From contig JAHWKR010000009.1 in the NCBI GenBank assembly GCA_019347805.1, positions 1-64,000 of the forward strand: a stretch of DNA of 64,000 nt. Direction: 5' to 3'. A program made the translations under genes and the position numbers. Under the pieces are notes generated by a model. That model was not told the DNA's origin, did no database searches, and saw nothing but the letters and a program-made list of their open reading frames with translations. Origin of the DNA: Methanobacteriota archaeon. GTDB lineage: Archaea; Thermoplasmatota; E2; JACPAO01; JAHWKR01. Positions 48,392 to 63,136 of the stretch are shown piece by piece (position 1 is the first letter of the stretch; each line of letters opens with the position of its first letter).

Positions 48392-49417
48392 ATGACGGGT
48401 GCCGTCCACCCTGCCCGGGATGAAGAAGCCGCGGTGGCCCTCCTGGCCATGGGCGGACCCCGCGAGGAAACCGAGGTCGCGCCCTTCCTCGAGGCGCTGT
48501 TCTCGGACCGGCGCATGATCCGCCTGCCTTGGTTCCTGCGCCCGTTCCAGGACCGGCTCGCCCGTCGCATCGCCCGACGACGCACGCCCCTCGTCGCGCC
48601 CAAATACGCCGCCATCGGCCATTCTCCACTCGTCGCCACCACGGAAGCGCTCGCCCGCGCGCTCGAAGACACCGCCGGCGCCGCCGGCCGACGCCTCTCG
48701 GCATGGGCCGGGATGCGCTACGGCCCGCCACGCACGCCCGACGTCCTCGGTAACGCCCTCCCCACGGCCCGCGCCACCCGTGTCGTGCTCCTGCCGCAAT
48801 ACCCTTTCTACAGCGGCGCCACCACCGAAAGCAGCCTGCTCGAAGCGGAAGCGGCCGTCACCGCCCACGGACTCCGCCCGCTGCGCATCGAACGCTTCGG
48901 CGACCATCCCCTTCATCTCCAGCTCGTCGAAGAGCAGGTCCGCGCCGTCTGGGACGACGTCCCCATGTCTCGGCGCGACGAGGCCCACCTCCTTTTTTCC
49001 GCGCACGGGCTGCCCGAATCCTATGTCCGCCGCGGCGACCCCTACCACGACGAGGTCCGACGCGCCTTCGAAGCCGTGAGGGACCGGCTCGCCGACATCG
49101 TCCCGAAAGAGCGCTTCCACCTGTCCTTCCAATCCCGTGTCGGCCCCGTCGAATGGCTGCGTCCCTACACCGACGAGACCCTCGTGCGTCTCGGCCGCTC
49201 CGGCGTGCGCAGCCTTGTGGTCGTCCCGTTCGGCTTCACCTGCGAACATCTTGAGACGCTGGAAGAGATCGACATCCAGTACCGGGAACTGGCGCACGAC
49301 AACGGCATCACCGGCTTCCACCGTGTCCCCACCCCCGGCACCGACCCCCGGTATGTCGCCCTTCAACTGGACCTCGTGGAGCAAGCGCTCGCCGATGACG
49401 ACGGGGGTGCGCGCTGA
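48392..49417 (+). CDS. hemH: Ferrochelatase
   Basis: A 341-residue ferrochelatase that inserts Fe2+ into protoporphyrin IX (or coproporphyrin III in the coproporphyrin-dependent variant). The start is moved to ATG 48392, the 21st track codon, on TATA spacing and homology (AAVALLAMGGPREETEVAPFL). Hallmarks: metal-binding His in HLLFSAHGLPESYVRRGDPYHDEV, SFQSRVGPVEWLRPYTDETL, and the conserved Glu region VPFGFTCEHLETLEEIDIQY. VVLLPQYPFYSGATTESS matches the family's PQYP box. First gene of the heme operon, ending in a TGATG overlap with hemA. Of bacterial type; very unusual in archaea. Confidence 0.9.
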   Translation: MTGAVHPARDEEAAVALLAMGGPREETEVAPFLEALFSDRRMIRLPWFLRPFQDRLARRIARRRTPLVAPKYAAIGHSPLVATTEALARALEDTAGAAGRRLSAWAGMRYGPPRTPDVLGNALPTARATRVVLLPQYPFYSGATTESSLLEAEAAVTAHGLRPLRIERFGDHPLHLQLVEEQVRAVWDDVPMSRRDEAHLLFSAHGLPESYVRRGDPYHDEVRRAFEAVRDRLADIVPKERFHLSFQSRVGPVEWLRPYTDETLVRLGRSGVRSLVVVPFGFTCEHLETLEEIDIQYRELAHDNGITGFHRVPTPGTDPRYVALQLDLVEQALADDDGGAR

Positions 49418-50715
49418 TGCGCCCCCCGACCCCGCGCGACCCCCACGGCCGGCTCCTCGTCATCACCTGGCGGCTCCCCAACACCCCCGCGGAACGACTG
49501 GAAAGGCTCCGTCTCGACGACGCGACCGGCCGCCGTGTGCTCGACAACGAGGACATCGAAGAGGTCTTCCTCCTCTCGACCTGCCAACGCCGCCTCGTCG
49601 CGCTCCTGCCGCGCGCTTCCTCGCGACCCGGCTCCCTCGCCCGCCGACTCGCCGACGCCCTCGCCGACGGCAATGCCACGATGCCCCCACCCGAGGTGTT
49701 CCATGGCTGGGACGCCGTCGCGCATCTTGCCGAGGTGGCCACCAGTCTCGACGCCCTCACTCCTGGCGAGACACAGGTCGTGGCACAGTTCCGCGACGCC
49801 GTCGCCCGCGCCCGCCGCGCCGCCTCGACCCGAGGCGCGCTCGACCGCATCCTTGACGGCTGTCTCCGCGTGTCGCGCAACGTCCGCAAGGACAGCCCTC
49901 TCGGCAAGGTGCGATCGCTCGTCCCCCTCGTCACCCCCCACCTCGAACAAGCGAAAGTGCGCGCCCACGGCGAAGGTCGCAAAGCGGTCGTGAGCGTCTA
50001 TGGCACCGGCGAGATGGCGTCCACCCTGCTGCAAGGCATCGACACGCGCGACATCACGCTCCACCTCGTCTCGCGCGACAGCGACCGCGCCCAAAGGCTC
50101 GTCGCCGGACGCGGCGACGCGACCGCGTGGGACCTCGACGCCTACCGCGCCGCCCGTATCGAAGCCGACGCCATCCTACTCGTCATGAAGACCACGACGC
50201 CGGTCTTCGACATCACAGACATCCCGAGTGGGCCAGGAGAGACGGTGGTGCTGGACCTCGGCCTGCCCCGCAACGCCGACCCCGCCATCGCCGGTTCCGT
50301 CCGGCTCATCGCGCTCGAAGACCTCGCACGCGTCGCCAACGCGGTCCCGCCCGACACGGCGCTCCTCGCCGTCCGTGCCCGTTTCGCCGACGAGATCGCC
50401 CGCTGGCGCCGACGCGCCGCCATCGAGGCCGACCGCGGCCGCATCGACTCCCTCCGCGCCGTCCTCGACGGCACCAGCGACGCGCTCATCACGCGACTGG
50501 AAGAGGACCTCGCCGCCGGACGGACAGAAAGCATCGACGTCTACCGCAGCGCCCTCAAACGCATGCGCCACCTCGCCCTCGAACACCTCGCCGAAGCGCT
50601 CTCGGCGCGCGCCGACACGAGGGGAAACGAGAAGAGAGACGAGGTCACACAAGGACCGGTCGCGGACGAGCGTAGGACCGAAGACCTTCACGGTGTCGAC
50701 GAGGTGCCGACATGA
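49417..50715 (+). CDS. hemA: Glutamyl-tRNA reductase
   Basis: A 432-residue enzyme reducing Glu-tRNA(Glu) to glutamate-1-semialdehyde with NADPH, the first step of tetrapyrrole synthesis. The catalytic cysteine lies in FLLSTCQRRLVALLP, a variant of the usual STCNR box with Gln for Asn. SLDALTPGETQVVAQFRDAVARAR matches the family's GE.QI.GQ.K.A region, and the Rossmann domain is VSVYGTGEMASTLLQGI. The C-terminal dimerisation helix is SIDVYRSALKRMRHLALEHLAEAL. TGATG overlap with hemH and ATGA overlap with hemCD place it firmly in the operon. It works with HemL. Confidence 0.88.
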   Translation: MRPPTPRDPHGRLLVITWRLPNTPAERLERLRLDDATGRRVLDNEDIEEVFLLSTCQRRLVALLPRASSRPGSLARRLADALADGNATMPPPEVFHGWDAVAHLAEVATSLDALTPGETQVVAQFRDAVARARRAASTRGALDRILDGCLRVSRNVRKDSPLGKVRSLVPLVTPHLEQAKVRAHGEGRKAVVSVYGTGEMASTLLQGIDTRDITLHLVSRDSDRAQRLVAGRGDATAWDLDAYRAARIEADAILLVMKTTTPVFDITDIPSGPGETVVLDLGLPRNADPAIAGSVRLIALEDLARVANAVPPDTALLAVRARFADEIARWRRRAAIEADRGRIDSLRAVLDGTSDALITRLEEDLAAGRTESIDVYRSALKRMRHLALEHLAEALSARADTRGNEKRDEVTQGPVADERRTEDLHGVDEVPT

Positions 50716-52358
50716 CCCTCCGGCTCGGCACACGGGCCAGCCCCCTCGCCATGGCACAGGCACGGCTCGCCGTCGCTCCCCTCTCCGGGGCGACGGAAGA
50801 GAAGGTCGAGGTCGTCCCGCTGTCGAGCCTCGGCGACGAAGACCAGGTCCGGCCACTGTCCCGGTTCCTGGAACCCGGCGCCTTCACCCGCCGGCTCGAC
50901 GACGCCCTCCTCGATGGTAGCATCGACCTCGCGGTACACAGCCTGAAGGACGTCCCCCTCGACCCCCCGCCCGGCATCTCGCGCACCTACACGCTTGAAC
51001 GCGCCGACCCCGCCGACCGACTGCTTCTAGCGGCCGGACACGAGATTGGTGCACTGGGCGGCCTCCGCATCGGTACGAGCGCGCCGCGCCGACAGACCCA
51101 ACTCCACTCCCTGCACTCCCACGCCATCCCGATCGATGTCCGGGGCAACATCTCGACCCGCATCTCCCGTATCGCGCACGGTGAGCTCGACGGACTCTTC
51201 GTCGCCTCGGCCGTCTTCGCACGTGACGCGCCTACGCTGCCAATCGGCGTCGAGGCACACCGTCTTCCGCTCGACACATGGCCGACCGCACCGGGACAAG
51301 GCGCCCTCGCACTGCAGGCGCGCGCCGGTGACGAGGCTGAAACACTTCTTGCAGAGGTCGAGGATGTCACCACCCACACCGCTGTCGCCACAGAACGCGC
51401 GATCCTGCGCCGGCTCGGCGGCGGTTGCGGCACACCGCTCGGCGCGACCTGTCTTCCCCCCGGACACCCAGAAGGCGACGCGGACCGATGGACGCTGCAC
51501 GCGACCCTCGCGCACGACGGAGCGGATGGCGCACCCGCGCGGCTTGCCCGGGCGACCGCGACAGGGGAACCGGACGCCCTGGTGACGCGGGCTCTCATCG
51601 CGCTCCAAGCGCCACCAGGACCGGATCCTCGAGTGACTCAGCCCACTTCAAAAGGCCGGGTCCTCCTGGTCCAGGACCCGGATCCCTTGTGGGTCGAAAC
51701 GCTCGCCGCGTACGGCTGGGAAACGACCTCGTGGTGGCCTTTCACCACGCGCATGACGCTCGACACCACCGACACCCACGCCATCGAAGCATGGCGCGAC
51801 GCCGACTGGGTCCTCGTCACGAGCCGCCGCGCCGTCGAAGCGTGCCGCCGGCTCGATGCGGCCGCCGAAGCGGGACCGAAACGCATCGCCTGCACCGGAC
51901 CCACGACGGCACGCGCCCTACGCGCCGCCGGGCAACCGGTCACGCTCATGCCAAGAAGCGCCACAGGGCGCGACACGGCACGGCTCCTTGCCGAGCGGAT
52001 GATGCGGGAAGGCACGACCCGGGTCCTGTGGCCCTGCGGCGCGAACGTCCGACCCGAGCCGCTGGCGATCCTGGAGGAGGCCGGTATCGATGTCGAACGC
52101 CTCACGGTCTACGATGTCCGGCCGAAACAGGTCCCCGCGCCGAGCGGGCGGTTCGACCTGGTCCTCTTCACGAGCCCGGCCACCGCGCGTACCATACTCG
52201 CCGAGCCGCCACCCGCGCTCCTGGAGACGCCGTTCGCCGCCATCGGCCCGACGACCGGCGCGACCCTCGAAGCACTCGGCCATCCCACCCACACGCTCCC
52301 CGAGCCGACCCCCCAAGGGCTCGTACGACTCCTTTCCACATTGCAGGTGACCCCATGA
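50712..52358 (+). CDS. hemCD: HemC-HemD fusion: hydroxymethylbilane synthase and uroporphyrinogen-III synthase
   Basis: A 548-residue bifunctional protein. The N-terminal ~300 residues are porphobilinogen deaminase: LRLGTRASPLAMAQARL, DLAVHSLKDVPLDPPPG, IGTSAPRRQTQL, DVRGNISTRISRI, APGQGALALQAR, and the dipyrromethane-cofactor cysteine in RRLGGGCGTPLGA. After a short linker (~300-315) a HemD-like domain follows (GRVLLVQDPDPLWVETLAAYGWE...RIACTGPTTARALRAAGQPV...LVLFTSPATARTILA...AAIGPTTGATLEALG). Linking the two steps may channel the unstable linear hydroxymethylbilane. Fusions of this kind occur in some bacteria such as Leptospira; I know of none as standard in archaea. Confidence 0.88.
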   Translation: MTLRLGTRASPLAMAQARLAVAPLSGATEEKVEVVPLSSLGDEDQVRPLSRFLEPGAFTRRLDDALLDGSIDLAVHSLKDVPLDPPPGISRTYTLERADPADRLLLAAGHEIGALGGLRIGTSAPRRQTQLHSLHSHAIPIDVRGNISTRISRIAHGELDGLFVASAVFARDAPTLPIGVEAHRLPLDTWPTAPGQGALALQARAGDEAETLLAEVEDVTTHTAVATERAILRRLGGGCGTPLGATCLPPGHPEGDADRWTLHATLAHDGADGAPARLARATATGEPDALVTRALIALQAPPGPDPRVTQPTSKGRVLLVQDPDPLWVETLAAYGWETTSWWPFTTRMTLDTTDTHAIEAWRDADWVLVTSRRAVEACRRLDAAAEAGPKRIACTGPTTARALRAAGQPVTLMPRSATGRDTARLLAERMMREGTTRVLWPCGANVRPEPLAILEEAGIDVERLTVYDVRPKQVPAPSGRFDLVLFTSPATARTILAEPPPALLETPFAAIGPTTGATLEALGHPTHTLPEPTPQGLVRLLSTLQVTP

Positions 52359-53383
52359 GAACCGAGACCCACCTTGCTGAACTCGCACCCCGCGACCGGT
52401 CCGTCGCACGGCCACGGCGCCTTCGCGCGCACGGCGCGATCCGAGACGCCATCGCCGACGCCTCGGTCGACCCGGCCCGACTGGCCCTCCCGGTCTTCGC
52501 GCTCGACGGCGACGGACGCGAGGAGCCCATCGCCAGCCTCCCCGGCCACGCACGCCTCGGGCCCGACCGGCTCGTCGAACGGCTCGCCCCCCTCGTCGAC
52601 GCCGGGCTTCGCTCGGTGATGGTGTTCGGCGTACCGGACGATAAGCACGACGATGCCCGCACGCTCACCGCGGAGGATGGACCCGCCCAGAAGGCGTTGC
52701 ACGCATTGCGCGAGGCATTCGGCGATCGCCTGCTCCTCATGGCCGACGTCTGCCTCTGCCCCCACACGACACATGGCCACTGCGGCGTGCCCGTCACCGA
52801 CGCCTCGACCGGACGCGTGCGCATCGACGGCGACGCCGCTCTCCCGCTCCTTTCCGCCGGCGCCGTCTCCCTCGCCCGGGCGGGCGCCGACTGGGTCGCG
52901 CCGAGCGACATGATGGACGGCCGGGTCGCCGCCGTCCGGACCGCGCTGGACGACGCCGGCCATCGCGACACCGCCATCCTCTCCTACACCGCCAAATTCG
53001 CGAGCGCCCACTACGGCCCCTTCCGCGAAGCGGCAGGATCTGCGCCCGCCTTCGGAGACCGCCGCACGTATCAGATGGACCCTCGGGGCGTGCGCGACGC
53101 ACTGCGCTCCGCCCGGCTCGATGAGACGGCCGGCGCCGACATGCTCCTTGTCAAACCCGGCCTCCCCTACCTCGACGTACTTTCTGCCCTACACGACCGC
53201 ACCGATCTTCCTCTTGCCGCCTACCACGTCTCCGGCGAATACGCCATGGTGCACGCCGCGGCCGAGCGGGGGTGGGTCGACGCCCGCGCGGTCTACGAGG
53301 AACAACTCGTCGCCCTCAGACGGGCCGGCGCCGACCTCGTCCTCACCTACGCCGCGCTCGACATCCTCTCGGAGGACATCTGA
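52355..53383 (+). CDS. hemB: Porphobilinogen synthase (delta-aminolevulinate dehydratase)
   Basis: A 342-residue PBGS condensing two 5-aminolevulinates. ATG 52355 overlaps hemCD by four bases; the 652-aa track ORF is a false extension. The active-site zinc ligands are present: DVCLCPHTTHGHCG (three cysteines, the Zn-dependent class). Schiff-base lysines: SYTAKFASAHYGPFR and MLLVKPGLPYLD. Also typical are PSDMMDGRV, RRTYQMDP and YHVSGEYAMV. The N-terminal arm (~30 residues before LALPVF) matches the octamer-forming arm. The stop TGA overlaps the hemL ATG (TGATG). Confidence 0.93.
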   Translation: MRTETHLAELAPRDRSVARPRRLRAHGAIRDAIADASVDPARLALPVFALDGDGREEPIASLPGHARLGPDRLVERLAPLVDAGLRSVMVFGVPDDKHDDARTLTAEDGPAQKALHALREAFGDRLLLMADVCLCPHTTHGHCGVPVTDASTGRVRIDGDAALPLLSAGAVSLARAGADWVAPSDMMDGRVAAVRTALDDAGHRDTAILSYTAKFASAHYGPFREAAGSAPAFGDRRTYQMDPRGVRDALRSARLDETAGADMLLVKPGLPYLDVLSALHDRTDLPLAAYHVSGEYAMVHAAAERGWVDARAVYEEQLVALRRAGADLVLTYAALDILSEDI

Positions 53384-54678
53384 TGAACATGCGACAAGAG
53401 ACACGCGACCATTGGAAAGAGGCCACCGCGCTGCTTGCCGGCGGCGTCTCGTCACCGGTCCGGGCGTTCCACGCGGTCGGCGGTGACCCGGTCTTCCTCG
53501 TCGAAGGCGACGGTGCCCATGTCCGCGACGCGTCCGGCCGCGACTACATCGACCTCTCCATGGCGTGGGGTCCACTGGTCCTCGGCCATGCCCGGCCCGA
53601 GGTGATCAAGGCGGTCCAGGAGACGGCCGCGAAAGGGCTCCACTTCGGCGCATGCCATCCGCTCGAGGCCCGCTTGGCACGGCTCATCGTCGACCACCAC
53701 AGCGCCGCCGAGAAGGTGCGGTTCACCACCTCCGGCACGGAGGCCGTGATGAGCGCCGTGCGGCTCGCCCGCCACGCCACCGGACGCAACAAGGTGGTCG
53801 CGTTCCAGGGTTGCTATCACGGCCATGCCGACCTGTTCCTTGCCGCCGGTGGCAGCGGACTCGCCACGTTCGGATTGTCCGGTGCGCCCGGCGTGCCCGA
53901 CGGCACGGTCGACGACACCGCGTTCCTTCCCCTTGACGACCTCGCGACGGTCCGGGCGTTCTTCGACGCGCACGGCGACGAAGTGGCCTGCGTGGTCATG
54001 GAGGGCGTCCCCGCCAACAACGGCCTGCTCGTGCAGGACCCGGCTTTCGTCCGCGCTGTCGAACGCATCGCCCATCGGCACGGCGCGCTCTTGCTTCTCG
54101 ATGAGGTCATCACCGGGTTCCGTCTCGGCCCTGGTGGCGCGACCTCCTACTATGGCCTCAAACCCGACCTCGTCACGTTCGGGAAGGTCATCGGCGGCGG
54201 CATGCCGCTCGCCGCCTACGCCGGCCGCAGCGACCTCATGGACCTCCTTGCGCCGACCGGCCCGGTCTACCAGGCCGGGACGCTCTCCGGCAGCCCGGTC
54301 GCGCTCGCAGCAGGTGTCGCGACCCTCGAGACGCTCCTTTCCGAGGCGCCATGGGACCACCTGTCGCACGCCTCCTCGCGCCTCTTCTCCGGTCTTGTGA
54401 ACAGTGCGGAATCCGCCGGTGTTCCGTTCACCGGGCAGGTCATGGACAGCATCGTCTGGGGGCTCTTCGCTGATGGGCCTCCGCCTGTCCGCCCGGACGG
54501 CATCACAGCGGACGCCGTCGCGCGCTATGCCCGGTTCCATCAGGCGGCGTTGCGGAACGGCGTTTACCTGCCACCGAGCGCGCACGAGGTGTCGTTCGTC
54601 TCCACGGCGCACGACGACGCGATCATCGACGAGACCACGGAGCGACTCGGACGCGCCATGGACGAGGTGGGCGCATGA
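53383..54678 (+). CDS. hemL: Glutamate-1-semialdehyde 2,1-aminomutase
   Basis: A 431-residue PLP enzyme converting glutamate-1-semialdehyde to 5-aminolevulinate. ATG 53383 (MNMRQETRDHWKEATALLAGGVSSPVRAF) fits the family; the track start is 37 codons too early. Motifs: GGVSSPVRAF, SMAWGPLVLGHA, TTSGTEAVMSAVRLAR, FQGCYHGHAD, LLLDEVITGFR, and PLP lysine in TFGKVIGGGMPLAAYAGR, then YQAGTLSGSPVA. The gene lies between hemB and hemE with TGATG and ATGA overlaps, so all are translated from one mRNA. Confidence 0.93.
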   Translation: MNMRQETRDHWKEATALLAGGVSSPVRAFHAVGGDPVFLVEGDGAHVRDASGRDYIDLSMAWGPLVLGHARPEVIKAVQETAAKGLHFGACHPLEARLARLIVDHHSAAEKVRFTTSGTEAVMSAVRLARHATGRNKVVAFQGCYHGHADLFLAAGGSGLATFGLSGAPGVPDGTVDDTAFLPLDDLATVRAFFDAHGDEVACVVMEGVPANNGLLVQDPAFVRAVERIAHRHGALLLLDEVITGFRLGPGGATSYYGLKPDLVTFGKVIGGGMPLAAYAGRSDLMDLLAPTGPVYQAGTLSGSPVALAAGVATLETLLSEAPWDHLSHASSRLFSGLVNSAESAGVPFTGQVMDSIVWGLFADGPPPVRPDGITADAVARYARFHQAALRNGVYLPPSAHEVSFVSTAHDDAIIDETTERLGRAMDEVGA

Positions 54679-55718
54679 CGACGATGACGGCGCGCGAACG
54701 CTTCCTCGCCGCCTGCGCGGGCCGCCCCGTCGACCATGTGCCGGTCTGGTTCATGCGCCAAGCGGGCCGACATCTGCCGGAATACCGGGCGCTGCGTCGC
54801 GACATGGATTTCTGGACCTCCCTCACGACGCCCGACGTCGCGGCCCGCATCACCTTGCAACCCGTCGAACGCTACGGCGTCGACGCCGCGGTGCTTTTTT
54901 CGGACATCCTGGTGGCGCTTCCCGCCATCGGGGCGCCCGTCACCTTCGAAGGCGGCAAAGGCCCACGGGTCCTCGAACCGGTGCGCGACGCCGAAGCGGT
55001 CGACGCGCTCGGAGACGCCTCTATGTCCGACCTGTCGTTCCTCGCCGGGACCTGCCGGGCGGTGCGCGAAGCATCCCCGGACATCGCCATCGTCGGCTTC
55101 TCGGGCGCCCCCTTCACGCTCGCCGCCTACCTTGTCGAAGGCGGCGGCAGCAAGGATTGGGCCAAGACGCGCGCCTTCCTCCATGACGACCCGGAGACTT
55201 TCGGTCGCCTCCTCGACAAGACGGCGACCGCCGCCGAGGCCCAGATCGATGTCCAGATCGATGCCGGTACCGATGTCATCCAGATCTTCGATTCCTGGGC
55301 CGAGGTGCTCTCTGCCGAGGTCTACCGCGACGTCGTCCTGCCGCACCTGTCACGGCTTGTGACGCATGTCCAAGACCGCGGCCTCCCCTGCATCGCCTTC
55401 GCCAAAGGAAGCCCCCATCTTCTCGAGGTGGTCGCCGAGAGTCCGGCAGCGGTCATCGGTGTCGACTGGCGCGTCCCGCTCGATGTGGCACGACACCGGA
55501 CCAGTGGGCGTCCCTTGCAGGGCAACCTCGACCCGGCCCTCATGGCCGCCGCGCCCGAGGTCGCCGTCGCCGCGACACGACAAGCGCTCGCCGCCGCCGG
55601 GCCCGGCGGCCACATCCTCAACACCGGCCACGGCCTCTCTCCCGAGGCCCGTCCGGAGACGGTCGCCGCCGTCGTCAAATACGTCCAGAGCGCGACGCTC
55701 GTCAAGGAGGCGCCATGA
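54675..55718 (+). CDS. hemE: Uroporphyrinogen decarboxylase
   Basis: A 347-residue UroD that removes the four acetate carboxyls of uroporphyrinogen III. The N-terminal signature is PVWFMRQAGRHLPEYR (substrate-binding Arg residues), followed by LFSDILVALPAIG (conserved Asp), IVGFSGAPFTLAAYLVEGGGS, IQIFDSWAEVLS, IGVDWRVPL and the closing GGHILNTGHGLSPEARPETV. ATGA overlap with hemL and hemN. Its presence commits flux to the coproporphyrinogen branch, unlike the siroheme-derived route of most archaea. Confidence 0.93.
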   Translation: MTTMTARERFLAACAGRPVDHVPVWFMRQAGRHLPEYRALRRDMDFWTSLTTPDVAARITLQPVERYGVDAAVLFSDILVALPAIGAPVTFEGGKGPRVLEPVRDAEAVDALGDASMSDLSFLAGTCRAVREASPDIAIVGFSGAPFTLAAYLVEGGGSKDWAKTRAFLHDDPETFGRLLDKTATAAEAQIDVQIDAGTDVIQIFDSWAEVLSAEVYRDVVLPHLSRLVTHVQDRGLPCIAFAKGSPHLLEVVAESPAAVIGVDWRVPLDVARHRTSGRPLQGNLDPALMAAAPEVAVAATRQALAAAGPGGHILNTGHGLSPEARPETVAAVVKYVQSATLVKEAP

Positions 55719-57076
55719 AGATCGACGCAGAGACCGTCCGCCGGTTCGATGTCCCCGGGCCCCGCTACACCTCCTACCCGACGGTGCCCCAATGGACCGA
55801 GACGCACGGCGCCCAAGCGCACGAGCGTGCCCTTGCCGCCGCCGCTTCCTCGACCGCGCCCCTGGCCCTCTACGTGCACATCCCGTTCTGCGCCAAGCGC
55901 TGCCTGTTCTGCGGCTGCAACACCCACATCACCCGCGACCCGAACCATCCACCGGTCTTCATCGAGACGCTCCTTGAAGAGGCGCGACGTGTGGCCGAAC
56001 GACTCGGCACCCGCCGGTCGCTGCGGCAACTCCACCTCGGTGGTGGTACCCCGACCCACCTCACACCGGACGAACTCGATTCACTCCTGTCTCCCCTGCT
56101 GCGACTTTTTCCGGCCCTTCCCGACGCCGAACTCGGCATCGAGGTCCACCCGGCGGTCACGACGACCGATCATATCGACATGCTCGCGCGACACGGCTTC
56201 GACCGCATCTCGATGGGCGTGCAGGATTTCGACCCGCAGGTCCAGGACGCCATCCGGCGCCACCAGAGCGTCGCCGAGACACAGACGCTCATCGAACATG
56301 CCCGCGCAGTGGGCTTCTCCGGGGTCAACCTCGACCTCATCTACGGTCTCCCCCACCAGACACCTGGACGGTGGACCCGAACGCTCGATGCGGTCATCGG
56401 TCTTCGTCCGGACCGCCTCGCGCTTTACTCCTATGCGCATCTGCCCTCCCGGTTCCCGCACCAGGCGGCGATGCCCGAAAGGGCCATGCCCAAAGAGGAC
56501 GGCAAGGTGCGCCTCTTCCTCATGGCGCGCGACCGCTTCCTCGACGCCGGCTACGAGGCCATCGGGTTCGACCACTTCGCGCTGCCCACGGACGACCTGG
56601 CACGCGGCCTCCACGACGGCACGCTCCACCGCAACTTCATGGGCTACACGACGCGCCATGCCCCCGACCTCGTGGCACTGGGACCGAGCGCCATCTCCCA
56701 GGTCGGTCCGACCTTCGCGCAGAACGACCACGCGCTCGCCGGCTGGGCCGAACGTGTGTGTGATGGACGCCTGGCGACCGTCCGCGGGATCGCGCTTTCG
56801 GCGGACGACCTCGCGCGGCGGGACGCCATCGAAGGGTTCCTCTGCCGGTTCGTCCTCGACGTCACCGCTCTTCGGCAACGGCATGGGCCGGCCGCCGGCG
56901 GTGTGGTCGCCGACATCGAACGGAACACGCCGGAGTGGGAGGCGGCACGACTGGTGGAGAAGGACGGGGCCCTGGTGCGGGCGACCGGACTCGGCCGGCT
57001 TTTTGCACGCAACATCGCAATGGGACTGGACGCCTATCTCGACAAGAACGCGACCGCCTTCTCGCGTACCGTGTGA
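55715..57076 (+). CDS. hemN: Oxygen-independent coproporphyrinogen III oxidase
   Basis: A 453-residue radical-SAM enzyme forming protoporphyrinogen IX without oxygen. It shows RYTSYPTVPQW near the N-terminus, the 4Fe-4S motif C-x3-C-x2-C in IPFCAKRCLFCGCNTHI including the extra downstream cysteine typical of true HemN, LHLGGGTPTHLTPDEL, and ISMGVQDFDPQVQDAIRRHQS. The C-terminal HemN domain is present (AIEGFLCRFVLDV). These features separate it from HemW-type chaperones, which lack the C-x-C extension. AAGGAGG Shine-Dalgarno before the ATG, which also overlaps the hemE stop. It works in anoxic or oxic cytoplasm. Confidence 0.92.
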   Translation: MKIDAETVRRFDVPGPRYTSYPTVPQWTETHGAQAHERALAAAASSTAPLALYVHIPFCAKRCLFCGCNTHITRDPNHPPVFIETLLEEARRVAERLGTRRSLRQLHLGGGTPTHLTPDELDSLLSPLLRLFPALPDAELGIEVHPAVTTTDHIDMLARHGFDRISMGVQDFDPQVQDAIRRHQSVAETQTLIEHARAVGFSGVNLDLIYGLPHQTPGRWTRTLDAVIGLRPDRLALYSYAHLPSRFPHQAAMPERAMPKEDGKVRLFLMARDRFLDAGYEAIGFDHFALPTDDLARGLHDGTLHRNFMGYTTRHAPDLVALGPSAISQVGPTFAQNDHALAGWAERVCDGRLATVRGIALSADDLARRDAIEGFLCRFVLDVTALRQRHGPAAGGVVADIERNTPEWEAARLVEKDGALVRATGLGRLFARNIAMGLDAYLDKNATAFSRTV

Positions 57077-57085
57077 GGGGACTGG

Positions 57086-58396
57086 ATGGATCGCGTGGAC
57101 GCCATCGTCGTGGGCGCCGGATTGGCGGGACTCGCCGCCGCACACCGGTTGCGCGCGCTCGGCCTGGACGTGCTTGTCCTGGAGAGCGCTTCCCGACCCG
57201 GAGGTGCCGTCCGCACCGTCCGTGACAGAGACTGGCTCCTCGAACAAGGACCCCACGCCGTCGATGCGTCCGCACCCGCGCTCCGCGCGCTTCTTTCGGA
57301 AGCCGACGTCGACCCGGGTCTTCTGGTCCCCGCCACACCTTCGTCGCGGGAGCGGTTCGTCGTACAGGACGGTCGACGACGCGCTGTTCCACTCACACCC
57401 ATCGACCTTCTGCGCTCGGACGTGCTTCCGTTCAGCGCAAAACTGCGGCTCTTATTGGAACCGCTCGTCCGTCGGCGCGTGGACACGGACGAGGAGAGCG
57501 TCGCCGCATTCGCCTCGCGCCGCTTCGGCCCAAGGACGCTCGACCTCGTCGACGCGGTCGTGACCGGAGTGCATGCAGGCGACCCCCAGCGCCTGTCGGT
57601 GCGCGCGGCTTTCCCGGCCCTCGTCGAGGCGGAGCGAACATATGGAAGTGTCCTGCGCGGGATCGCGAAGGGGTCCCGCAGGAAGCGTACGCTCGCTGCA
57701 CCCTTGGGCGGGATGGAACGCCTTATCGAGGCCTTATGCGAACGGCTCACGGTGCGGACAGCGACGCAGGTCACCTCGGTCGAAAAAAGTCCGGATGGAT
57801 CTGTCGTGACCCTTGCGGACGCGACCCGATACACGACACACCACCTCGTCTTGGCGGCACCACCCGGACCGGTCGCCGAGATGCTCGGGATAACACGACC
57901 GGATGTGCCGAACGCGCCGGTCACGGTCGTGGGGCTCGGATTCCGCGACGATGACCTTCCTGCCGACACCTTGCGCGGCTACGGCGCGTTGCACCCGCAC
58001 AATGAAGGACTGTTCACCCTCGGGATGCTCCACGAATCCACCCTGTTCCCTGCACAGGCGCCCGCCGGTCACTCGCTTGTGCGGGCTCTGGTGGGAGGCA
58101 GACGCGCCGCCGATCGCGCCCACCTTCCGGACAATCTCCTCGTCGATGGCGTCCTGGACGACCTGGAACGGATCGTCGGCATGAACGCACGACCGGTCTG
58201 GTCGCACGTGCTCCGGAACAGACGCGGGATCCCGCAACTGGAACTCTGTCATCAAGCCCATATCGAGCCGATCGTCGGGACGGTGGGCCGGATGGCCGGC
58301 GTCGCCTTGGCGGGATGGGGATGGAGCGGCATCGGCATCGAGAACTCGATCGCAAGCGGTCAGGAGGCAGCGAAGGCTGTCCTCAGCGACGCATAG
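57086..58396 (+). CDS. hemY: Protoporphyrinogen oxidase (FAD-dependent)
   Basis: A 436-residue FAD flavoprotein of the HemG/HemY (PPO) family. The dinucleotide fold is VDAIVVGAGLAGLAAAHRLRALGLDVLVLESASRPGGAVRT, followed by WLLEQGPHAVDASAPALRALL. FGPRTLDLVDAVVTGVHAGDPQRLSVRAAFP and PLGGMERLIEALCERL match PPO, and the C-terminal FAD closure is VALAGWGWSGIGIENSIASGQEAAKAV. It oxidises protoporphyrinogen IX (or coproporphyrinogen III) with oxygen or another acceptor. Last operon gene, nine bases after hemN. It could supply HemH directly, making the pathway complete in this locus. Confidence 0.87.
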   Translation: MDRVDAIVVGAGLAGLAAAHRLRALGLDVLVLESASRPGGAVRTVRDRDWLLEQGPHAVDASAPALRALLSEADVDPGLLVPATPSSRERFVVQDGRRRAVPLTPIDLLRSDVLPFSAKLRLLLEPLVRRRVDTDEESVAAFASRRFGPRTLDLVDAVVTGVHAGDPQRLSVRAAFPALVEAERTYGSVLRGIAKGSRRKRTLAAPLGGMERLIEALCERLTVRTATQVTSVEKSPDGSVVTLADATRYTTHHLVLAAPPGPVAEMLGITRPDVPNAPVTVVGLGFRDDDLPADTLRGYGALHPHNEGLFTLGMLHESTLFPAQAPAGHSLVRALVGGRRAADRAHLPDNLLVDGVLDDLERIVGMNARPVWSHVLRNRRGIPQLELCHQAHIEPIVGTVGRMAGVALAGWGWSGIGIENSIASGQEAAKAVLSDA

Positions 58397-58813: not shown

Positions 58814-59123
58814 TACGGTTTCGTTCTGTGCCAGAGCTGGTCACCTCGATGGAACTTATTACTAAGGCCGAGAGTAAACGGTTTTGGAACAGGTACACGC
58901 TTCGTGGTATGACATATGCGCCGCATCGAAATGGAGGGGAGGCATATCAGCGCACGCCGACCTTGATAAGGGAAGGCCGAAGAATGCGAGGTGGGTTTGC
59001 TCCACAGCAGTGACGCCCGCCCTCGTACCACCGGGGCGCAAGGATGCGGGCACGGGTTGCCGGAGAGAGCGAAGCGAACGACGGCTCTCCCGGTGGTCGC
59101 ACAAGCGACCGAAGGGAGCGAAG
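58814..59123. other. Intergenic region between SPW gene and tRNA-Gly, with repeat element
   Basis: No protein gene is supported. The left part holds the SPW promoter. The right part is the 3' flank of tRNA-Gly and contains a copy of that tRNA's 3' end and a structured hairpin, described separately. Confidence 0.5.
59045..59123 (-). repeat. tRNA-Gly 3' flank element with duplicated tRNA end
   Basis: Reading from the tRNA, hairpin GCTCCCTTCGGTCGC ... GCGACCACCGGGAGAGC follows directly; then CCCGTGCCCGCA at 59045-59056 repeats the tRNA 3' end (CCCGGTGCCCGCA at 59124-59136) with an offset of 79 bp. The outer hairpin arms GCTCCC / GGGAGAGC are identical to those beside tRNA-Leu, while the inner stems differ but still pair. 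Confidence 0.5.
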
Positions 59124-59194
59124 TGCGGGCACCGGGATTCGAACCCGGGCTGATGGCTTGGAAGGCCATAGTGATACCACTTCACTATGCCCGC
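59124..59194 (-). tRNA. tRNA-Gly(TCC)
   Basis: A 71-nt gene with full cloverleaf: acceptor GCGGGCA / TGCCCGC, D arm GTG...CAC, anticodon stem ATGGC CTTCCAA GCCAT with anticodon TCC, T arm CCGGG TTCGAAT CCCGG, discriminator A. CCA is not encoded. No intron. It decodes GGA/GGG glycine codons. Confidence 0.93.
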
Positions 59195-59324
59195 GTGATG
59201 GCGTCCCGGTCGCCAAGAGGCCCTCCGGGATGCGCCCTCACTTGGCTCCTGTTCTTAAACCGTGCGGCCGGCGTCGCACGGTCGGACCTGTCGTGGGCCA
59301 GACCCAACGGCGACCGAGCGCGGA

Positions 59325-60035
59325 TCAATATCCGCTGAACTGCTCGGTCCGGATCTGCTCGTCCGGAATCCCCTCTTCCTCGAGCATGTGCACCATCGAG
59401 TCGACCATCTGGGGCGGACCACAGATGTAGTAGATCGCATCCTCGTTCCAGATGCGGTCTTTCTTGAGCATCCGGGCCTCGATGCGGCCGGTCTTGTACT
59501 CCTCGGGGACGCCGGTGTGCGGCTCTCTTGTGATGAAATAATCGACGTGGATATTGTCGTGTTCTTCCTCAAGTTCTTCAAGGCGGTCCATGAACGCGAT
59601 CTCTTCCCGCGTCGAGTTGCTGTAGGCGAGATCGATCTCCCGGTCGATGTCCTTGTCGACAACATACTCGATGATGCTCTTGAGAGGCGTGATGCCGATC
59701 CCGCCCGAGAGCATGATGATCGGTTCGTTCTCATCCTCCTTGTAGACGAAGCCGCCTGCCGGCCCTTGGATCGACAGCGTTTCTCCCGGCTCCATGGCGT
59801 GCAGCGTCTCCTTGAACGGGCTCCCGGAATCTTTCGTGGCGAACTCGAGATGGTCGCGCAGTGGCGAGGACGCGATCGAGAGCGGGCGTGCCTCCTCACC
59901 GTCGCCGGTGTTCACACGCACGACGGCGAACTGGCCCGGCTTGAAATCGAAATCCTTCGGCTTCCTGACCTGGACGGCATGGGTCGTCGGCGTCTCTTGC
60001 CAAGAACGCAACACTTCGACATCGTACTTTTGCAT
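59325..60035 (-). CDS. FAD/NAD(P)-binding oxidoreductase (ferredoxin-reductase fold)
   Basis: A 236-residue FNR-superfamily reductase. FAD-binding domain: DFDFKPGQFAVVRV and RPLSIASSP (R-x-x-S type). NAD(P) domain: IIMLSGGIGITPLKSIIEYVV, then AIYYICGPPQMVDSMVHML and the C-terminal EQFSGY, where an aromatic tail stacks on FAD. There is no 2Fe-2S ferredoxin domain. It probably passes electrons between NAD(P)H and a separate ferredoxin, haem or oxygenase partner. The start ATG 60035 begins at the homologous MQKYDVEVLRSW; ATG 60074 would add 13 residues. Codon use is AT-richer than flanks but otherwise ordinary. Confidence 0.85.
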   Translation of the reverse strand: MQKYDVEVLRSWQETPTTHAVQVRKPKDFDFKPGQFAVVRVNTGDGEEARPLSIASSPLRDHLEFATKDSGSPFKETLHAMEPGETLSIQGPAGGFVYKEDENEPIIMLSGGIGITPLKSIIEYVVDKDIDREIDLAYSNSTREEIAFMDRLEELEEEHDNIHVDYFITREPHTGVPEEYKTGRIEARMLKKDRIWNEDAIYYICGPPQMVDSMVHMLEEEGIPDEQIRTEQFSGY

Positions 60036-60163
60036 CTGTGGCCTACGGTCCCCGAAGACGGTGCTTTCCACCATCAGAAGTAACTGTTGGATTCCGGTAT
60101 TGACGGAGCAACCTCGTCGTCGGCGACCCGCCCTGCCGAGCAGAGTGAAGCGAAGGGAGACGA

Positions 60164-60253
60164 CAGGGAGAGGGAACGCCGAACGAAGTGAGGCGTCTGC
60201 CCCTCCCTGCATGCGACCGCTCTCCCGCCGCCGCAGGCGGCGGAAGGGAGCCA
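60164..60253 (-). repeat. tRNA-Leu 3' flank element with duplicated tRNA end
   Basis: Reading from the tRNA, hairpin GCTCCCTTCCGCCGCC TGC GGCGGCGGGAGAGC follows, then an inverted copy of the acceptor end (GCATGCAGGGAGGGG), then TCCCTCTCCCTG at 60164-60175, an exact direct copy of tRNA bases 60256-60267 with an offset of 92 bp. The inner stem is 8 bp with a 3-base loop. Confidence 0.5.
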
Positions 60254-60337
60254 TGCAGGGAGAGGGATTCGAACCCCCGAACCTCTTCAGGACAGGATCT
60301 TAAGTCCCGCGCCGTTGGCCAGCTTGGCTATCCCTGC
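60254..60337 (-). tRNA. tRNA-Leu(TAA)
   Basis: An 84-nt class II tRNA: acceptor GCAGGGA / TCCCTGC, D arm GCC...GGC, anticodon loop CTTAAGA (anticodon TAA), long variable arm near TCCTGAAGAGG, T arm GGGGG TTCGAAT CCCTC, discriminator A, no encoded CCA and no intron. Confidence 0.93.
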
Positions 60338-60850
60338 GGACAGCGGGAGTCCGGTGTCGGTCTTGAAGCTGGCCCCTCGGCCTCTCGACCGCAAGCCTTA
60401 GGAGCCGGCCTCGGCTCGGCGCAGCCACTCCACCTAGCGCGAGTGAAGTCCACGATCTAGAACGTTCGGCCCACTGCGCCGGGGCCTCGCGCGCATGCTG
60501 CGCCCGGTACCCTGCAGAACGACACGAGGGGACGAGGGAGCCGATTCCCTCGATATAGGTGCGGGGGGGCAAAGCCCCCCGCGAACATTAGCTGGACCGC
60601 TAGCCATGGGAGGGGCATGCCCCCCATCTCGACGCGCTTCGTCCCTACTCCAGATCCCGGGGACCGCATCTGGGCCCACCGGTATGGCGATCGGAAGGAA
60701 AACACAGCTCTGGAACCACGCTAGAGCCCGTCCGCGCGTTGGCGGGACCGGCCGTGGCCCCCACATCTATTTAGGACGACGCGCCATTCGAGGCATGTGG
60801 TCCACCAGCAACTTATTTAAAGTGCCGCTGGTGCCTCGGAGCTGATCCCC
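60338..60850. other. Gene-poor intergenic region with GC-rich hairpins
   Basis: No convincing ORF in 513 bp; track ORFs here have non-protein-like composition. Structures visible: GCGGGGGGGC AAA GCCCCCCGC near 60560-60582, ATGGGAGGGGCATGCCCCCCAT near 60604-60625, and GAGGGA..TCCCTC pairing near 60535-60555. CTAAATAG-type AT-rich boxes lie at about 60766-60776. A structured noncoding RNA is possible, but I find no SRP or RNase P signature. The right end holds the promoter of the next operon, CTTATTTAAAG (60811-60821). Confidence 0.4.
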
Positions 60851-61012
60851 ATGGCCTCCCCGTCCCCCGTCCAGGAGCCAGTCCTAAAACTGACCAAGCA
60901 GGAATTTTTGGAAGCGCTGTCCAAACCAGATCCTGAACTTCCGGAAGCCGACGCACTTGACGAGGGCGAAGAGGTCACGCCGGATACATTGAGGATAGTT
61001 TTTACAGTCTAA
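60851..61012 (+). CDS. Small 53-aa protein upstream of papain-like gene
   Basis: An ORF below the track's size cut-off. ATG 60851 lies about 35 bp after the TATA-like CTTATTTAAAG, and the TAA is 16 bp before the next gene. The sequence MASPSPVQEPVLKLTKQEFLEALSKPD... is acidic and helical in the middle (KLTKQEFLEAL), with an extended acidic end. It may be the small partner, inhibitor or leader of the following papain-like protein, in the manner of a toxin-antitoxin or defence pair (inference). Codon use is AT-richer than the core genome, like the larger gene. Confidence 0.5.
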   Translation: MASPSPVQEPVLKLTKQEFLEALSKPDPELPEADALDEGEEVTPDTLRIVFTV

Positions 61013-61028
61013 CCGGCTCCTCGACGTC

Positions 61029-62564
61029 ATGTACACTGTTCTTCCATTCTCGGAAGACGGGTTCGTAGGATCTTGCACCCACCCTAAGCTGAGTGAGAAC
61101 GCGTGCAGGCAAAATGCCCATACAAGGTACTTCATCGAGTATCTGCGGGCCATTGGCTGCAAGACAATCGTGGTGGAACAGGATTATGTGGATCGAGACT
61201 ACCTCGTAGACTTCACAGCTTACTATGCTAGGTGCTTTTTCGACTACGACCGGAAGTGTAAGCGTCTCCATTTCTTCTCTGGCGATTTCGCTGCCGGCGA
61301 CCTCGAAGCATTGCTGGATGGCTCGATGTCACCCATGCCGGAGCGGTTCGGAAAATATCTTGGATTCATCGTTGTAAAGCCTCTGCCTGTCAGGTTCTTT
61401 GGGCGCACCTGCCTTGTCACTTATCCGACCGATGGCGGCAGGCGATTCCCTTCTCTGCGCCGATACGATGTACATTTGGCAGGCGAACCCTTGTCGGTAG
61501 AAAGCCTTGCGTTCCAAGAACAAGACCGTGACGTGGCCGCATGCGCCACCGCTGCCATCTGGTCGGCACTGCACAAGACGGCCAAGGAGTTCGGGTTCCG
61601 CATTCCTACGCCATCAGAAATCACACGCATGGTCGACGAAAGTTCGTCAACATCCCAACGGAACATCCCGAACAACGGATTGACCGTCGAACAGATTCGC
61701 CACGCCATCAAGAAAACGGGTTTAGAAGCGGAAATATTCTCTGTCCCAAACTTGGCTGCGCTAAAGACTCATATTTACGCGTATCATGCGTTCGGACTAC
61801 CGGTTATTCTCGGTTATGGACTTGAAACTAATCAGGGCGAGTTGCTTGGGGCGCACGCGGTAACAGTTGCTGGGATGAACCTGGATACAAAAGGCGCAGC
61901 ACCAACACTGACGGCCCAGAGAATCATAAAACTCTACTTGCATGATGACCAAGCCGGGCCCTTTTCCCGGGCCACTTTTGGCGCAGGAGAAACTCTTGAA
62001 ACACAGTTTCCTGATCCGCACGGCCCTGTTCTTGCCAAGCCAAGGAAGGTTCCGGGGCAGCAGCCGTCGTATACTGTCATCGTCCCTGTGTATCCAAAGA
62101 TTAGGATTAGCGTAACAGAAGCCATCGACTACCTGAAAGACCTCCTCAAATTTTTCAGTCGCCTCCAATTCGGCGGCATTGAGTGGGATGTCCGTTTAAT
62201 TTCCAATACAGAATACAAAAAGCAGATTCCGACCACTACCACAGCCCGAGAAGTAATCCGTCGCGTCAGAACGGCTCAGCTCCCCCGATTCATGTGGCTC
62301 CTGAGGGGAACGACGCAGAGGGGCCTTCTTTTTGACCTACTGCTCGACGCAACAAGCATTCGCGACGCCGAATTGCACGTGCATCGCGTATTCTACGACG
62401 AAGCCGTTCGCAGTCACGTGTGGAACAACATCCTCGCCGACAAGTCGGTTCAGGACCGACTTATGCAATCAACCCATGAACGTTTTGCTAAAGCCATACT
62501 TGCCGTATTTGAACCGGACAAGCCGACGGCACCTGCGAACTCAGACGCAGTCATTATCGCATGA
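61029..62564 (+). CDS. Papain/C39-like cysteine peptidase-fold protein
   Basis: A 511-residue soluble protein. The central region has a C39/papain-like order of catalytic residues: Cys172 in DRDVAACATAAIWSALHK and His276 in ELLGAHAVTVAGMN, followed by KLYLHDDQAGPFSRATF, where an Asp would complete the triad. The N-terminal 165 residues include a ferry-like KYLGFIVVKPLP block; the C-terminal ~150 residues are unassigned (RTAQLPRFMWLLRG). It is lower in GC than flanking genes, consistent with acquisition. No signal peptide or ABC-transporter domain is present, so it is not a standard bacteriocin-processing C39 exporter. A self-targeting or defence effector is possible. Confidence 0.6.
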   Translation: MYTVLPFSEDGFVGSCTHPKLSENACRQNAHTRYFIEYLRAIGCKTIVVEQDYVDRDYLVDFTAYYARCFFDYDRKCKRLHFFSGDFAAGDLEALLDGSMSPMPERFGKYLGFIVVKPLPVRFFGRTCLVTYPTDGGRRFPSLRRYDVHLAGEPLSVESLAFQEQDRDVAACATAAIWSALHKTAKEFGFRIPTPSEITRMVDESSSTSQRNIPNNGLTVEQIRHAIKKTGLEAEIFSVPNLAALKTHIYAYHAFGLPVILGYGLETNQGELLGAHAVTVAGMNLDTKGAAPTLTAQRIIKLYLHDDQAGPFSRATFGAGETLETQFPDPHGPVLAKPRKVPGQQPSYTVIVPVYPKIRISVTEAIDYLKDLLKFFSRLQFGGIEWDVRLISNTEYKKQIPTTTTAREVIRRVRTAQLPRFMWLLRGTTQRGLLFDLLLDATSIRDAELHVHRVFYDEAVRSHVWNNILADKSVQDRLMQSTHERFAKAILAVFEPDKPTAPANSDAVIIA

Positions 62565-62589
62565 GAATAGGAGTCTCTCAGTCAACGGA

Positions 62590-62943
62590 TCAGTGTGCGT
62601 AAGGCCGGAACAAGTGAGCGAGTAGTGCCTTGCTACCCGCGTACTTCAAAAAATGCCGCACTGTGGTGGTGCCATGCGCGACTGCTTCTCCGGTAGCCTC
62701 CAGGTCGCGGTGGTTCAGGTAGAACGCGGGTTTTATAAGGGAGGCGTCTTTGAGACCCTCGGCACGGCGGAGTCCGAGGAACATTCGGGCGACTCCCTGG
62801 TACGCTCGCGGCGACGCGGACGCCGTCCTGGTTCGTCGGGCCGGTCTCGGAGAGCACCATTTGGGGTACCCTTCCTTGTACGCTTCGGTGTCTCTCAGCG
62901 TACAGGGTGGCGATGACCTCCGAATGCATGCTACCAAGGTCAT
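62590..62943 (-). pseudogene. Possible ORF or gene remnant beside tRNA-Pro
   Basis: A 117-aa minus-strand frame whose second half reads like protein (YQGVARMFLGLRRAEGLKDASLIKPAFYLNHRDLEATGEAVAHG) and ends FRPYAH. The first half is basic and proline-rich and looks like noncoding or another frame; a neighbouring frame (MHSEVIATLYAERH) looks more protein-like there, so a frameshift could separate the two. A strong CTTATAAAACC lies inside it. I cannot identify a family. The 385-bp interval holds nothing else convincing. Confidence 0.25.
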
Positions 62944-62949
62944 ACTCTA

Positions 62950-63022
62950 GGGTCCGTGGGTTAGTTTGGTATACTTGGGGCTTTGGGAGCCTTAGACTCC
63001 GGTTCAAATCCGGGCGGACCCA
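62950..63022 (+). tRNA. tRNA-Pro(TGG)
   Basis: A 73-nt gene: acceptor GGGTCCG / CGGACCC, D arm with GGTTAGTTTGGTATACT, anticodon stem GGGGC TTTGGGA GCCTT (two G-U pairs; anticodon TGG), T arm TCCGG TTCAAAT CCGGG, discriminator A. No intron, CCA not encoded. Confidence 0.92.
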
Positions 63023-63103
63023 TCCACACTTTGCGGCAGCGGAGCTGACGCAGGGCGTGGCTCCACCCGGTGTTGCTCGCTGACGCTCGCAATCCGGGCG
63101 GAC
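63023..63103 (+). repeat. tRNA-Pro 3' flank element with duplicated tRNA end
   Basis: AATCCGGGCGGAC at 63091-63103 is an exact 13-nt copy of the tRNA 3' part at 63007-63019, offset 84 bp. Between them lie GGAGC TGACGC AGG GCGT GGCTCC, a hairpin, and GCTCGCTGACGCTCGC. The layout matches the flanks of the other two tRNAs in this window, although the intervening sequence is not obviously the same. Confidence 0.5.
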
Positions 63104-63136
63104 AACATGGACGGAGTGATCGCGCCGCCATGGTGG

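Follow-up and report, generated by a model that had tools for sequence, protein, structure and literature searches.

At about 19 of the 44 tRNA genes examined (~43%) in the archaeal genome G000, the tRNA is followed by one or more short hairpin units whose last bases repeat the 3′ end of the same tRNA. G000 is our label for the genome that contains the window, i.e., the whole 64,000-nucleotide stretch of DNA analyzed here. The units have a common anatomy, stand in tandem arrays, have covarying hairpin arms and occur in further archaea; in Escherichia coli, comparable units vary in copy number by exact unit lengths. Judged from these sequences, the arrangement looks like an apparently widespread, largely unnoticed class linked to tRNA genes rather than the scars of mobile elements. 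With about even confidence, we take the units to be tandemly duplicating candidate RNAs similar to E. coli RtT RNA, with 3′ ends that probably derive from tRNA 3′ processing.

The window holds three tRNA genes, each identified by ARAGORN and Rfam. On the reverse strand, tRNA-Gly(TCC) occupies 59124–59194 with its discriminator at 59124. Its unit comprises a 5′ arm, TGCGACCACCGGG (59089–59101, reverse strand), that by sequence reading pairs with the tRNA 3′ end with some mismatches, and the copy ACCCGTGCCCGCA (59045–59057, reverse strand), of which the part GTGCCCGCA (59045–59053) is exact at an offset of 79. Also on the reverse strand are tRNA-Leu(TAA) (60254–60337, discriminator at 60254), a first hairpin in its trailer (60216–60252; RNAfold, −56.0 kcal/mol for the whole unit), the 5′ arm TGCAGGGAGGGGC read from the sequence (60199–60211) and the copy TCCCTCTCCCTGTC (60162–60175), with the exact part TCCCTCTCCCTG at 60164–60175 and an offset of 92. 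On the forward strand, tRNA-Pro(TGG) (62950–63022, discriminator at 63022) is followed by a trailer hairpin (63024–63060, RNAfold) that overlaps the start of the 5′ arm TGGCTCCACCCGG (63058–63070). An inner hairpin found by alignment and pair counts (TGTTGC-TC-GC-TGAC-GC-TC-GCAAT, 63071–63093) replaces the T-loop, and the copy AATCCGGGCGGAC (63091–63103) lies in register at an offset of 84. The arm falls within a match of covariance model R1 (63058–63106, E 1.2e-10), a model whose training set included this sequence. The three copies are thus found where a sequence-only reading had placed them, and the intervening segment, which it had called hairpin-rich, is filled by a covarying hairpin.

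Between tRNA-Leu and tRNA-Pro, an ORF of 511 aa (61029–62561, forward strand) has no Pfam match. A run of forward-strand ORFs at 49417–58393 resembles a haem/tetrapyrrole synthesis cluster, from glutamyl-tRNA reductase (Pfam) to an amine-oxidase-fold protein resembling protoporphyrinogen oxidase.

When 120-bp pieces were drawn at random from the window, 13 of 1500 reached the score of the Gly copy, 1 of 1500 that of the Leu copy and 0 of 1500 that of the Pro copy. The tRNA-Gly copy is therefore weak if taken alone and could be due to chance, and hence all 44 tRNAs of the genome were tested. We searched with the last 20 nt of each tRNA (match +1, mismatch −2) for in-register copies with a score of at least 11 within 200 bp downstream. 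Such copies were present at 18 of 44 tRNAs, compared with 0/44 upstream, 0/43 farther downstream (+600 to +790) and 0/880 in dinucleotide shuffles. The sequence-only reading had called for this search of every tRNA gene; against the outcome it named as adverse, i.e., other tRNAs lacking the pattern and shuffled sequence matching equally well, about 43% of the tRNAs carry a copy and the shuffles do not. Its statement that all three tRNAs have copies is true of these three, but partly a matter of luck given the genome-wide frequency of about 19 in 44. When probes were swapped between tRNAs, only 11 of 1892 combinations (0.6%) scored at least 11, isoacceptors with shared ends included. As the sequence-only reading had held, the copies are specific for their tRNA and do not represent a shared repeat.

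Carriers in G000 include all five Leu tRNAs, four of five Arg, both Pro, both Glu and two of three Gly tRNAs, together with some Gln, Ala, Val and Ser tRNAs. At least two tandem units were found at loci L008, L015, L016, L029, L031, L033, L035, L039 and L041. By our own reading, the archaeal assignment of G000 rests on its intron-bearing tRNA loci, its tRNA genes that lack an encoded CCA and a kinship class in common with other archaeal-type genomes.

In order along the DNA come the tRNA, a short trailer that often has a small hairpin of its own, and a further hairpin, in which the copy forms the 3′ strand. Archaeal units are mostly 60–130 bp long. In 74 copies from six genomes, the copied stretch corresponds to about nt 58–73 of the tRNA, i.e., it starts inside the T-loop and ends at the discriminator. 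The left limit lies 13–19 nt from the tRNA end in nearly all copies and the right edge is nt 73, beyond which nothing is duplicated in most units. The Asn, Phe and Met genes of genome G005 encode CCA, yet CCA is absent from their copies. The 5′ strand of the hairpin was complementary to the copy in 17 of 23 G000 units (at least 10 Watson–Crick pairs over 13 positions, starting opposite the discriminator) compared with 3% of shuffled bodies; mismatches between arm and copy were mostly C·C and T·C. Complementary 5′ arms were found in 7 of 18 G005 units (0.6% in shuffled bodies) and, among DPANN units, in only 0 of 5 and 1 of 14. When eight units that belong to six tRNAs were aligned, 77.8% of the cells were paired, compared with 65% in column shuffles, none of 500 reaching the observed value, and with at most 49% in slid versions. 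Nine pairs of this alignment had changes on both sides. The interior of the units is variable, with TC-GC-NNNN-GC-TC in many G000 units. A mini-hairpin, GCGAAGC/GCTTCGC, was enriched about 11-fold in G000 units relative to their surroundings and about 55-fold in those of G001.

G001, an order-level relative of G000, carries units at 9 of 45 tRNAs, with one assignment ambiguous. Its arms also pair through the T-loop, and a mimic of the tRNA minihelix with its T-loop was therefore rejected as a general model. G005, which belongs to another family of the same class, has units at 12 of 27 tRNAs. Here a common body, recognizable by AATTA-CC motifs in the trailer and by the core GGCCAAT...ATTAG, recurs after the Cys, Ser, Arg, Thr, Asn and Met tRNAs, and each of these bodies ends in the 3′ end of its own tRNA. 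When named genomes were scanned for a Pro/Val end that is repeated, further carriers came from the Woesearchaeota, along with an Aenigmatarchaeote, a DPANN archaeon and a Thermoplasmata MAG. Copies were found at 15 of 30 tRNAs in the DPANN genome G081, at about 4 of 35 in G080 (neighboring tRNAs left out) and at one or two of 6 in G082; the Thermoplasmata MAG G083 has units of the same anatomy at 11 of 24 tRNAs. The relatives G008 (0/27 tRNAs) and G004 (0/13) were free of units. Among 80 genomes of the class, covariance models built from the units of G000 (R1) and of G005 (R2) each matched their own genome only. A shared sequence family was therefore rejected, i.e., the bodies are not conserved across lineages at that sensitivity. 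Actinobacterial, Chloroflexi and other bacterial matches of the scan were discarded as repeats with no tRNA at the match. A viral origin was likewise rejected, as the four IMG/VR contigs that matched the Pro/Val-end pattern had no tRNA there and represent unrelated repeats. In the open-access papers searched, we found no archaeal description of such units.

Several loci depart from the simple arrangement or resemble one another across tRNAs. In the Thermoplasmata MAG DAOVJP01, locus L154 (5154–5258), on which no tRNA was found, is an orphan copy-unit-copy of the tRNA-Pro/Val end; it sits just upstream of an ORF that, by its sequence, reads like Spt5/NusG. Locus L123 (G005, C109, 5770–5810) is a displaced unit of tRNA-Ser type, spanning the trailer half up to the discriminator, with no tRNA before it. 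At L122 (G005, C9), the 3′ end of tRNA-Arg(GCG) recurs 558 bp downstream, past a tRNA-Ile gene. At the DPANN loci L150, L166, L177, L213, L218, L220, L233 and L234, units that follow Val, Glu, Ser, Gln and Pro tRNAs have a common core like CATGCTCA-stem-TGGCA, and a second class, GTGGGCTCGA...CAACCGAAAGGTTG, follows Cys, Leu and Val tRNAs. ATTAMCC trailer motifs about 17 nt before the unit hairpin are common to the distant genomes G005 (L106, L110, L116) and G083 (L235, L245, L238).

E. coli has a known counterpart, RtT RNA (rttR). The units that follow tyrV are 178 bp long and terminate in AATCCTTCCCCCACCACCA, the tRNA-Tyr end, and a similar 175-bp unit stands behind tyrT. The Rfam RtT model (RF00391) spans each tyr unit, with GGGGAAGGAU/AUCCUUCCCC as the closing helix and its last position on CCA; E. 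coli genes encode the mature CCA end, and CCA is part of the copies there. An RtT unit also follows proK (101 bits); its terminus is AATCCTCTATCACCGACCA, the tRNA-Pro end. As the ends at tyrT/tyrV and at proK differ, the same rule applies as in the archaea, i.e., the body is shared and the end comes from the local tRNA. Behind tRNA-Pro(CGG), E. coli strains carry 0, 1 or 2 complete proK units in steps of 168 bp (L307, L311, L312, L313); units therefore come and go in whole multiples.

Like RtT, the archaeal units lie downstream of tRNAs, occur in tandem and end in the 3′ end of their own tRNA from the T-loop on. They also share the closing helix formed by a 5′ arm and the tRNA-end copy (17/23 units in G000 and 7/18 in G005, but not most DPANN units) and a body common to several tRNAs with the end set by the local one, as with Tyr and Pro in E. 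coli. However, archaeal units are mostly shorter (60–130 bp compared with 168–178 bp), end at the discriminator and not at CCA, and can accompany as many as half of the tRNAs in a genome, whereas RtT accompanies a few. RF00391 matched none of 14 archaeal loci at E ≤ 0.5; at E ≤ 0.1 it matched nothing in the whole genomes of six unit carriers, while the E. coli control was matched. The archaeal units are therefore RtT-like in their working at most and not members according to the family model. Trailer RNAs of the 3′ETS-leuZ type also are small RNAs cut from downstream of a tRNA, as the units would be, but there is no tRNA-end copy at E. coli leuZ.

The RtT-like reading draws on several observations. 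The copies at 18 of 44 tRNAs are absent upstream, farther downstream and in shuffles, a complementary 5′ arm shows two-sided pair changes, and shared bodies carry different, tRNA-matched ends both in G005 and in E. coli (tyrT/V compared with proK). The GCGAAGC/GCTTCGC mini-hairpin enriched in the units is, moreover, of a type that also occurs as an inner hairpin in E. coli RtT. Finally, RtT is reported to come free from the tyrT primary transcript as the tRNA is processed (PMC4986893, citing Bosl and Kersten 1991). We propose that a unit would be co-transcribed with its own tRNA and that tRNA 3′-end processing, i.e., RNase Z in archaea and exonucleolytic maturation in E. coli, would recognize the copy like the tRNA itself. 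Processing at the copy may then give the released small RNA a tRNA-like 3′ end. The end at nt 73 in archaea and at CCA in E. coli is what would be expected if the processing that makes the mature tRNA 3′ end also set the end of the copy; a tRNA 3′-processing feature had been among the possibilities raised by the sequence-only reading, and we agree that it is possible. Selection for a tRNA-like end, together with exchange between direct repeats, may keep the copy identical to its tRNA while the interior of the hairpin drifts, and recombination between direct repeats or slippage could add and remove units in exact multiples.

Some observations count against the RtT-like reading. T-runs lie between tRNA and unit in some G081 loci, and at E. 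coli proK a terminator-like hairpin does so. As most DPANN units are without a complementary arm, an RNase Z minihelix is not universal. The lack of RF00391 matches likewise speaks against it. In G000, the C·C and T·C mismatches of the arm are destabilizing and there is no excess of GU over AC, contrary to what is predicted for an RNA hairpin in the sense of the tRNA: an ungapped count gave 9 G·T and 26 A·C pairs (p 0.006), gapped alignments gave 12 GU and 11 AC, and blind helix counts were even.

This missing GU bias would suit selfish or recombinational DNA hairpins, single-stranded or cruciform, that undergo exchange at tRNA 3′ ends and would not have to be transcribed, a reading that we consider rather improbable. 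It would also accommodate the imperfect inverted arms with variable tip and unpaired spacers, the enrichment of GCGAAGC, a hyperstable DNA mini-hairpin, and the orphan units away from tRNAs (L123, L154). Furthermore, the TC/TC internal loops on the sense strand of G000 are tandem G·A on the other strand, where mismatches become G·G, G·A and G·T. However, the loop orientation is not constant, with TC in G000 and GA in G005, G083 and E. coli, and the edge at nt 73 ignores encoded CCA. In integron attC arrays, an anchor site is followed by imperfect hairpins whose tips vary, and in this general shape the units resemble them. Unlike attC, the units have no cassettes or ORF-sized cargo and their arm sequence tracks the tRNA. 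Unit-rich genomes have few or no tyrosine recombinases (PF00589, phage-integrase family): there was one match in G000, none in G005 and G080, one in G081 and two in G083.

The units might instead be a neutral by-product, in which replication pausing at tRNA genes leads to template switching and thereby to tandem and inverted copies, with gene conversion keeping them identical and no function involved; we give this a similarly small share of our belief. Exact-unit copy-number change in the tandem arrays at E. coli proK and the inverted copies of G001 that take in the T-loop are in line with it. Two-sided compensatory changes and cores common to different tRNAs speak against it, as do copies that end at nt 73 with no spread into the trailer and the same anatomy in distant lineages while many genomes have none.

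Least of all do we believe in att sites or scars of integrated elements, or in casposon target-site duplications, although the attR of tRNA-targeting archaeal elements likewise repeats the tRNA 3′ end in direct orientation on the 3′ side of the gene, with a T-loop edge, the T-loop is a known sub-site of tRNA-targeting integrases (PMC8371274), and the copy is close in length to the 14–15 bp of a casposon duplication. Here, tandem 60–130 bp hairpins with covarying arms occupy the gap between tRNA and copy, leaving no room for a gene, and the edge respects the tRNA end. Tyrosine recombinases number 0–1 in G000, G005, G080 and G081, compared with seven in the unit-free G008. The casposon duplication of Methanosarcina mazei takes in the last 4 bp of the tRNA and 10 bp beyond (PMC6977970), whereas the bases duplicated in the units lie inside the tRNA and mostly stop at nt 73. 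With the E. coli RtT parallel added, which involves no integrase, the att sites, miniature elements and island scars offered by the sequence-only reading are unsupported, and integrase att sites and casposon duplications were both rejected.

If the RtT-like reading is followed further, the units may, as a tentative generalization, represent an unrecognized class of tRNA-linked RNA that is present in two or more archaeal groups (Thermoplasmata-type and DPANN) and in enterobacteria, in which the copy of the tRNA 3′ end would act as a portable processing signal that gives small RNAs a tRNA-specific, possibly CCA-tailed terminus. Annotators should be cautious not to take the tRNA-end copies of such units for att sites or integration scars. 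With these findings, an isolated E. coli curiosity becomes a recurrent arrangement that marks as many as half of the tRNA genes in certain archaea, and a testable signal can be named, i.e., tRNA nt 61–73 as a portable 3′ end. The different tRNAs, bodies and lineages provide natural replicates for finding the role of RtT-like RNAs, and the differences between E. coli strains in 168-bp RtT units at proK are a ready natural experiment.
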